From Pelotomaculum thermopropionicum SI (lineage in GTDB: Bacteria; Bacillota; Desulfotomaculia; Desulfotomaculales; Pelotomaculaceae), in contig AP009389.1 in NCBI GenBank assembly GCA_000010565.1, forward strand, positions 1,674,001 to 1,738,000: a stretch of 64,000 nt of DNA, read 5' to 3'. The translations under genes were made by a program, and so were the position numbers. The notes beneath the pieces were generated by a model, which saw nothing but the letters and a program-made list of their open reading frames with translations, had not been told where the DNA came from and ran no database searches. Below are positions 23,856 through 24,253 of this stretch, one piece after another. Each line of letters begins with the position of its first letter. Positions within the stretch are counted from its first letter, which is position 1.

Positions 23856-23880
23856 AACAAAAAAACTGCCGCTGGGCAGT
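23856..23880 (-). terminator. Terminator of the UGA-containing glutaredoxin-like gene
   Basis: ACTGCC/GGCAGT stem with a 4-base loop followed on the minus strand by seven T residues, about 45 bases past the TAA at 23924. Confidence 0.75.
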
Positions 23881-23904
23881 TCATTTTAAAAACTAACTTT
23901 GGAG

Positions 23905-23932
23905 CGGCCCACGGGCCGTTTCTTTAAACCCC
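23905..23932 (-). promoter_or_regulatory. Candidate bacterial SECIS hairpin
   Basis: Just after the UGA at 23935-23933 (minus strand) a hairpin CGGCC-CGUG-GGCCG can form. The apical loop begins 19 bases after UGA and has G at its second position. Bacterial SECIS rules ask for a 16-37 base distance and a G among the first two loop bases, and both are met. The stem is short (5 bp, or 6 with a tighter loop). Confidence 0.6.
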
Positions 23933-24148
23933 TCAGGTTCCGCCAAAACCAATTTTGACGTTACCGTTTTCCACAATTACCGGCACCTTGCGCACTCCGC
24001 CGGTGAGCTTAAGCATCTCCTGCATGGCCTTCTGGTCTTTTTGCACGTCATAGTATGAATAAGGCACTTTACGCTGGGACAAGTCTTTTTTGGCGGCTAA
24101 AGTGTACGGGCAGCCTTCCTTGCCGTACACCAGTACCTTAGCGGACAT
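23924..24148 (-). CDS. Glutaredoxin-like candidate selenoprotein ending Sec-Gly-Val (UXX-star type)
   Basis: A small thioredoxin-fold protein starting MSAKVLVYGKEGCPYT, with a single-Cys CPYT site at residue 13, KVPVIVENG as the cis-Pro strand, and IGFGGT before an in-frame UGA at 23935-23933. Reading UGA as selenocysteine adds Sec-Gly-Val and then TAA, giving 74 residues. A C-terminal Sec followed by two residues and stop is the hallmark of a glutaredoxin-like family that I recall being named UXX-star. A SECIS-like hairpin follows in the right place. ATG at 24148 has AAGGAGGGGG upstream. If UGA is a stop, the protein simply ends at GGT. Confidence 0.72.
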
Positions 24149-24253
24149 ACTCCCCCTCCTTATTCCCGGTATTACCATCAGTTTAACAAAATATTATATA
24201 AATGGCCAGCATATTCATCGATTTTATTTATAATCGCTTTGTTCAATACCGCC

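Follow-up and report, generated by a model that had tools for sequence, protein, structure and literature searches.

We found that the gene at positions 23924-24148 on the minus strand of the window (the whole 64,000-nucleotide stretch of DNA that was analysed, from the anaerobic bacterium Pelotomaculum thermopropionicum SI) is, with a probability of about 0.95, a genuine UXX-star family 1 selenoprotein gene, in which selenocysteine (Sec) would be inserted by SelB and a downstream hairpin, and in which Cys13 and Sec72 would most likely act as a redox pair or in metal or metalloid binding. The recoding of UGA as Sec was well supported by comparison of related sequences. It belongs to a published, curated family, of which it is an ordinary member. 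Standard annotation would end it three residues early, and a probable functional residue would be lost. The features of the locus are as follows.

23924..24148, minus strand: gene for a 74-aa UXX-star family 1 selenoprotein, with UGA as the Sec codon and TAA as the stop (from the translation, NF041114 and PF00462)
24152..24160, minus strand: ribosome-binding site AGGAGGGGG before ATG 24148 (read from the sequence)
24101..24112, minus strand: CPYT site (Cys13-Pro-Tyr-Thr16) at the glutaredoxin active-site position (from the translation and the comparison of loci)
23933..23935, minus strand: predicted Sec UGA codon, residue 72 (UGA in 80/80 loci, Cys codon in three syntenic orthologues)
23924..23932, minus strand: tail codons Gly-Val and stop TAA (from codon-position conservation in 77 distinct sequences)
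23905..23918, minus strand: putative bacterial SECIS hairpin CGGCC-CGUG-GGCCG, entirely behind the stop codon (from folding and conservation in relatives)
23863..23882, minus strand: terminator-like hairpin with a T tail, apart from the SECIS hairpin (one found against 0.9 expected by shuffling; fold z of -3.0)

The minus-strand frame from ATG 24148 read MSAKVLVYGKEGCPYTLAAKKDLSQRKVPYSYYDVQKDQKAMQEMLKLTGGVRKVPVIVENGNVKIGFGGT, then UGA (23935-23933), GGG, GTT and TAA (23926-23924). In reading order from 24148 to 23924 this amounted to 71 codons followed by UGA, GGG, GTT and TAA, with the protein end GFGGT-U-GV. The coordinates and the GFGGT-UGA-GGG-GTT-TAA reading given in the initial annotation were exact, with the strand being minus, and the Cys that it placed in the N-terminal site was present in the translation as Cys13-Pro-Tyr-Thr16. 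The start at ATG 24148 was favoured over the ATG at 24178, because the former is preceded by AGGAGGGGG at 24160-24152, a strong ribosome-binding site with a spacing of 6 nt from GGAGG to the ATG.

The 74-aa product scored 113.9 bits against NF041114 ('UXX-star selenoprotein family 1'), a curated NCBIfam equivalog with a cut-off of 72 bits, and it aligned over the full profile (1-70/70) with the tail covered. This bore out the earlier proposal of a glutaredoxin-like Sec-x-x-stop family, the C-terminal Sec codon, two residues and stop being present as T-UGA-GGG-GTT-TAA. The wider Uxx_star model gave 107.5 bits against a cut-off of 66, and Pfam Glutaredoxin (PF00462) gave 53.2 bits. All 55 aligned sequences matched the same family models as the window product. 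Scores below the cut-off were obtained with NF041211 (66.1 against 100), NF047338 (62.9 against 97) and NF045501 (73.1 against 325).

For the comparison of loci, 79 of 80 loci drawn from the genome contigs were used together with the window gene, all with a clear tail (the remaining one, L072, which reads T-UGA-GL-TGA, was left out by the search pattern). A second, N-terminal Sec (UxxT) was absent from the window protein, which has CPYT at this site; Sec (UPYT, UPFT or UPHT) was observed there in 69 of the 80 loci and Cys in the other 11. Because the site varies among the loci compared, N-terminal UxxT was not taken as family-defining, and the window gene is a single-Sec CPYT subtype of UXX-star family 1. 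Since most loci have Sec at the N-terminal site as well, the Sec of the tail does not just replace a missing N-terminal one. The loci with UGA at both the N-terminal site and the tail (69/80, L019-L096) encode double selenoproteins of about 70-75 residues. A second UXX-star group was also observed (L058, L075, L089, L127-L134 and L137-L139), which combines a CPYC/CPHC dithiol site with a Sec tail of GGG-U-x-[V/I]-stop or similar; it was mostly from other Bacillota, and its scores fell short of the family 1 cut-off or lay close to it.

The tails of homologues, which the initial annotation had proposed as a check, were UGA followed by x-[V/I/F]-stop in 80/80 loci, and GGT-Cys-[Q/R]-Val-stop in three syntenic orthologues. 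If the UGA were an ordinary stop, the protein would have 71 residues and end in GGT, and the GV-TAA behind it would be there by chance. This would accord with standard decoding, under which ORF tools end the gene there, and with the unremarkable hairpin of the single sequence. It was nevertheless judged extremely improbable: all of the loci use UGA although TAA or TAG would serve equally, and codon-wise conservation runs two codons beyond UGA and ends at the next stop. In the 77 distinct sequences, over the stretch that begins with GG and ends with the second codon past UGA, third codon positions were free (0.05-0.28 bits) and most first and second positions were constrained (about 1.1-2.0 bits), while past the stop codon conservation was less than 0.45 bits per base. 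The codon-wise pattern up to the next stop, and its loss afterwards, therefore indicated translation through UGA and two further codons. In 40 of the 79 relatives (L017-L096), the stop after U-x-x was itself UGA, nine bases past the Sec UGA. Stop-UGA was more common in the relatives than in long neighbouring ORFs (131/400; Fisher p of 0.003, with loci that are not independent).

Reading of the UGA as an ordinary stop was also contradicted by Cys at the tail position in the syntenic orthologues. Among 60 related genomes, including the window's own, 11 had the gene over the cut-off, and in five of these 11, from two sister genera, it had the same setting as in the window, flanked by gpsA and spoIVA, and farther out by plsY and der. 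Two of the five (G012 and G021) showed GGT-UGA-GV and a hairpin of six G-C pairs, compared with five in the window. In the other three, from one genus (G005, G013 and G018; loci L103-L105), the tail was GGT-Cys-[Q/R]-V-stop, and the GC hairpin was absent, with 2, 0 and 1 G-C pairs, respectively. The genomes of the three Cys orthologues still contained selA and selB; it was therefore the gene that had changed, not the machinery. This exchange of Sec and Cys at one locus, with the GC hairpin lost as well, documents the gain or loss of selenocysteine with rare clarity. L103, L104 and L105 also have CSYT in place of CPYT, so that their active site has lost its otherwise invariant proline, and because of this change the Cys orthologues may have diverged in function.

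The genome was also checked for the machinery of Sec insertion, the lack of which would have told against the initial annotation, and the presence of which speaks against an ordinary stop. A tRNA-Sec with anticodon TCA was present in the P. thermopropionicum genome, as were selA (620 bits), selB (380 bits) and selD (402 bits, at 1935066-1935989), the last with one in-frame UGA itself. The selD match agrees with the published P. thermopropionicum selD coordinates of 1934961-1935986 (PMC2432076). In two other glutaredoxin-like loci of the same genome, L015 (G000:C1:1103182-1103376, minus strand) and L016 (G000:C1:2491183-2491377, plus strand), the N-terminal active site (UPHC) contained an in-frame UGA; they probably encode UxxC-type Sec glutaredoxins.

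The hairpin at 23918-23905 had a folding energy of -8.9 kcal/mol. It starts 14 nt after the UGA. In the published bSECIS model, the loop is 3-9 nt and the stem 4-16 bp, with G in the first two loop positions, a distance of 16-37 nt from UGA and an MFE of no more than -7.5 kcal/mol (PMC13188914). The window hairpin agreed with the model in every respect, with a 4-nt loop (CGUG) that starts 19 nt after the UGA and has G at position 2, a stem of 5 bp and the energy given above; the initial annotation had thus been right to place a CGUG-loop hairpin at the proper distance from UGA. Compared by itself with shuffled sequence of the same composition, the window hairpin gave a z of about 0 (47-nt stretch), and nothing in the window was matched by Rfam. 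That the hairpin is above chance follows from the comparison with relatives, not from the window sequence alone. The window stem has five pairs, and most relatives have six or more. When the stem search was confined to the region wholly behind the stop codon, six consecutive pairs were found in 64 of the 77 distinct sequences, whereas 6.7 were expected from shuffles (sd 2.4, maximum 13) and 4-6 were obtained when the search was slid downstream. In the six-pair hairpins of the relatives, 4-6 pair types were observed per stem position, the loop started 17-22 nt after UGA, and 63/64 had G among the two bases at the start of the loop.

Since the hairpin is GC-rich and directly behind the stop codon, it could be thought part of a transcription terminator and not a SECIS element. 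However, the T run is missing after it, and a separate terminator-like hairpin with a T run lies at 23882-23863; the latter would be the terminator that the initial annotation had placed after the TAA without overlap. The fixed distance from UGA and the G at the loop entrance were maintained across phyla, and the GC stem was absent from the Cys orthologues. Assignment of the hairpin to a terminator is thus highly improbable. For the preferred SECIS assignment, a recoding hairpin located wholly in the 3' UTR is less commonly stated; bacterial SECIS elements are placed in coding regions in PMC13188914. It is quite probable that throughout the family the SECIS lies untranslated in the 3' UTR, free of coding constraint, and that in half of the relatives one hairpin causes the first UGA to be read as Sec while the second, nine bases on, acts as the stop, which provides a natural measure of how strict SelB is about the distance between UGA and hairpin. 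These pairs of Sec-UGA and stop-UGA make the distance rule of SelB testable.

On this basis, the ribosome would arrive at UGA at codon 72, and SelB with Sec-tRNA would bind the hairpin that begins 14 nt further on, past the stop codon, a step deduced from established bacterial Sec decoding. Sec would be put in instead of termination, and the TAA two codons on would end the protein. The product would be a minimal glutaredoxin fold that stops shortly after its last strand, once the GG motif has been passed, with Cys13 at the classical active site and Sec72 in a short C-terminal tail. In the AlphaFold model (pLDDT of 90.9), four strands and two helices made up a glutaredoxin core, and no helix came after residue 49, whereas classical glutaredoxins go on into a third helix. 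Positions 13, 14 and 72 were invariant in the alignment, in which Sec was written as Cys. The GG motif that comes after the last strand in glutaredoxins adjoins the active-site Cys, for which reason Sec72 is likely to be close to Cys13.

Cys13 and Sec72 could then form a redox pair through a reversible selenenylsulfide, or jointly bind a soft metal or metalloid. That the two residues are redox partners, as first suggested in the initial annotation, is plausible; the selenenylsulfide redox pair would be the first choice for the chemistry, and metal or metalloid binding the second. It is possible, if somewhat doubtful, that the UGA is indeed recoded but that the Sec tail serves mainly as a metal or metalloid ligand rather than as the redox partner of Cys13. 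A 2026 review suggested that the Sec of UXX-star proteins may bind metal or contact an unknown substrate (PMC13188914), and both Thr16, in place of the resolving Cys of dithiol glutaredoxins, and the occurrence of Sec at both positions in many relatives are consistent with a ligand role. The genomic context pointed the other way: the window gene is flanked by gpsA, plsY, der and spoIVA, with a metal-handling neighbour absent, and recurrent metal genes were not found in the neighbourhoods of the relatives, where neighbours were partly identified. The survey of the relatives' neighbours, which were lineage-specific, revealed no functional partner. Some neighbours, recognised by eye only, resembled HPr, PTS enzyme I, SmpB and a LOG-like protein.

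Among known systems, glutaredoxin and NrdH-type proteins were the structural neighbours, with Z of 10-11 over residues 1-70. The closest solved structures were BC3987 (Z of 11.0) and cGrx1 (10.6), followed by other glutaredoxins and NrdH. The fold is common to the window protein and cGrx1 (PDB 7c10 and 7c12; Z of 10.4-10.6, 33-34% identity), which has a U/CxxC site. Glutaredoxins of the cGrx1 type carry the catalytic residue at the N-terminal site together with a resolving Cys, and their chain runs past the GG motif. In contrast, the window protein has Thr16, and its chain ends two residues past Sec72. Compared with classical dithiol glutaredoxins, it has CPYT instead of CxxC with a resolving Cys, and it ends in GGTUGV where a third C-terminal helix would follow the GG motif. 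With the NF041114 family it shares the length, the glutaredoxin-like core and the tail GxxU-x-x-stop. In PMC13188914 this family is named 'Distant Grx-like protein 1' and credited to the 2008 GOS selenoproteome paper; in the main-text passages found in the latter, the family goes unnamed. The family representative in PMC13188914 has two Sec and the motif UxxT, whereas the window protein has one Sec and CPYT. UXX-star families 2 and 3 (NF041211 and NF047338) and the HUGP/GUXX-star fusion (NF045501) have the fold and the idea of a C-terminal tail in common with the window protein, but differ in that the window product scores under their cut-offs. It was reported that an engineered 3'-UTR SECIS for the C-terminal Sec of thioredoxin reductase works in E. 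coli (PMC3834832). That arrangement is an artificial construct, whereas the arrangement in UXX-star genes is natural and conserved; the natural position of the SECIS behind the stop codon thus mirrors the one engineered in the laboratory.
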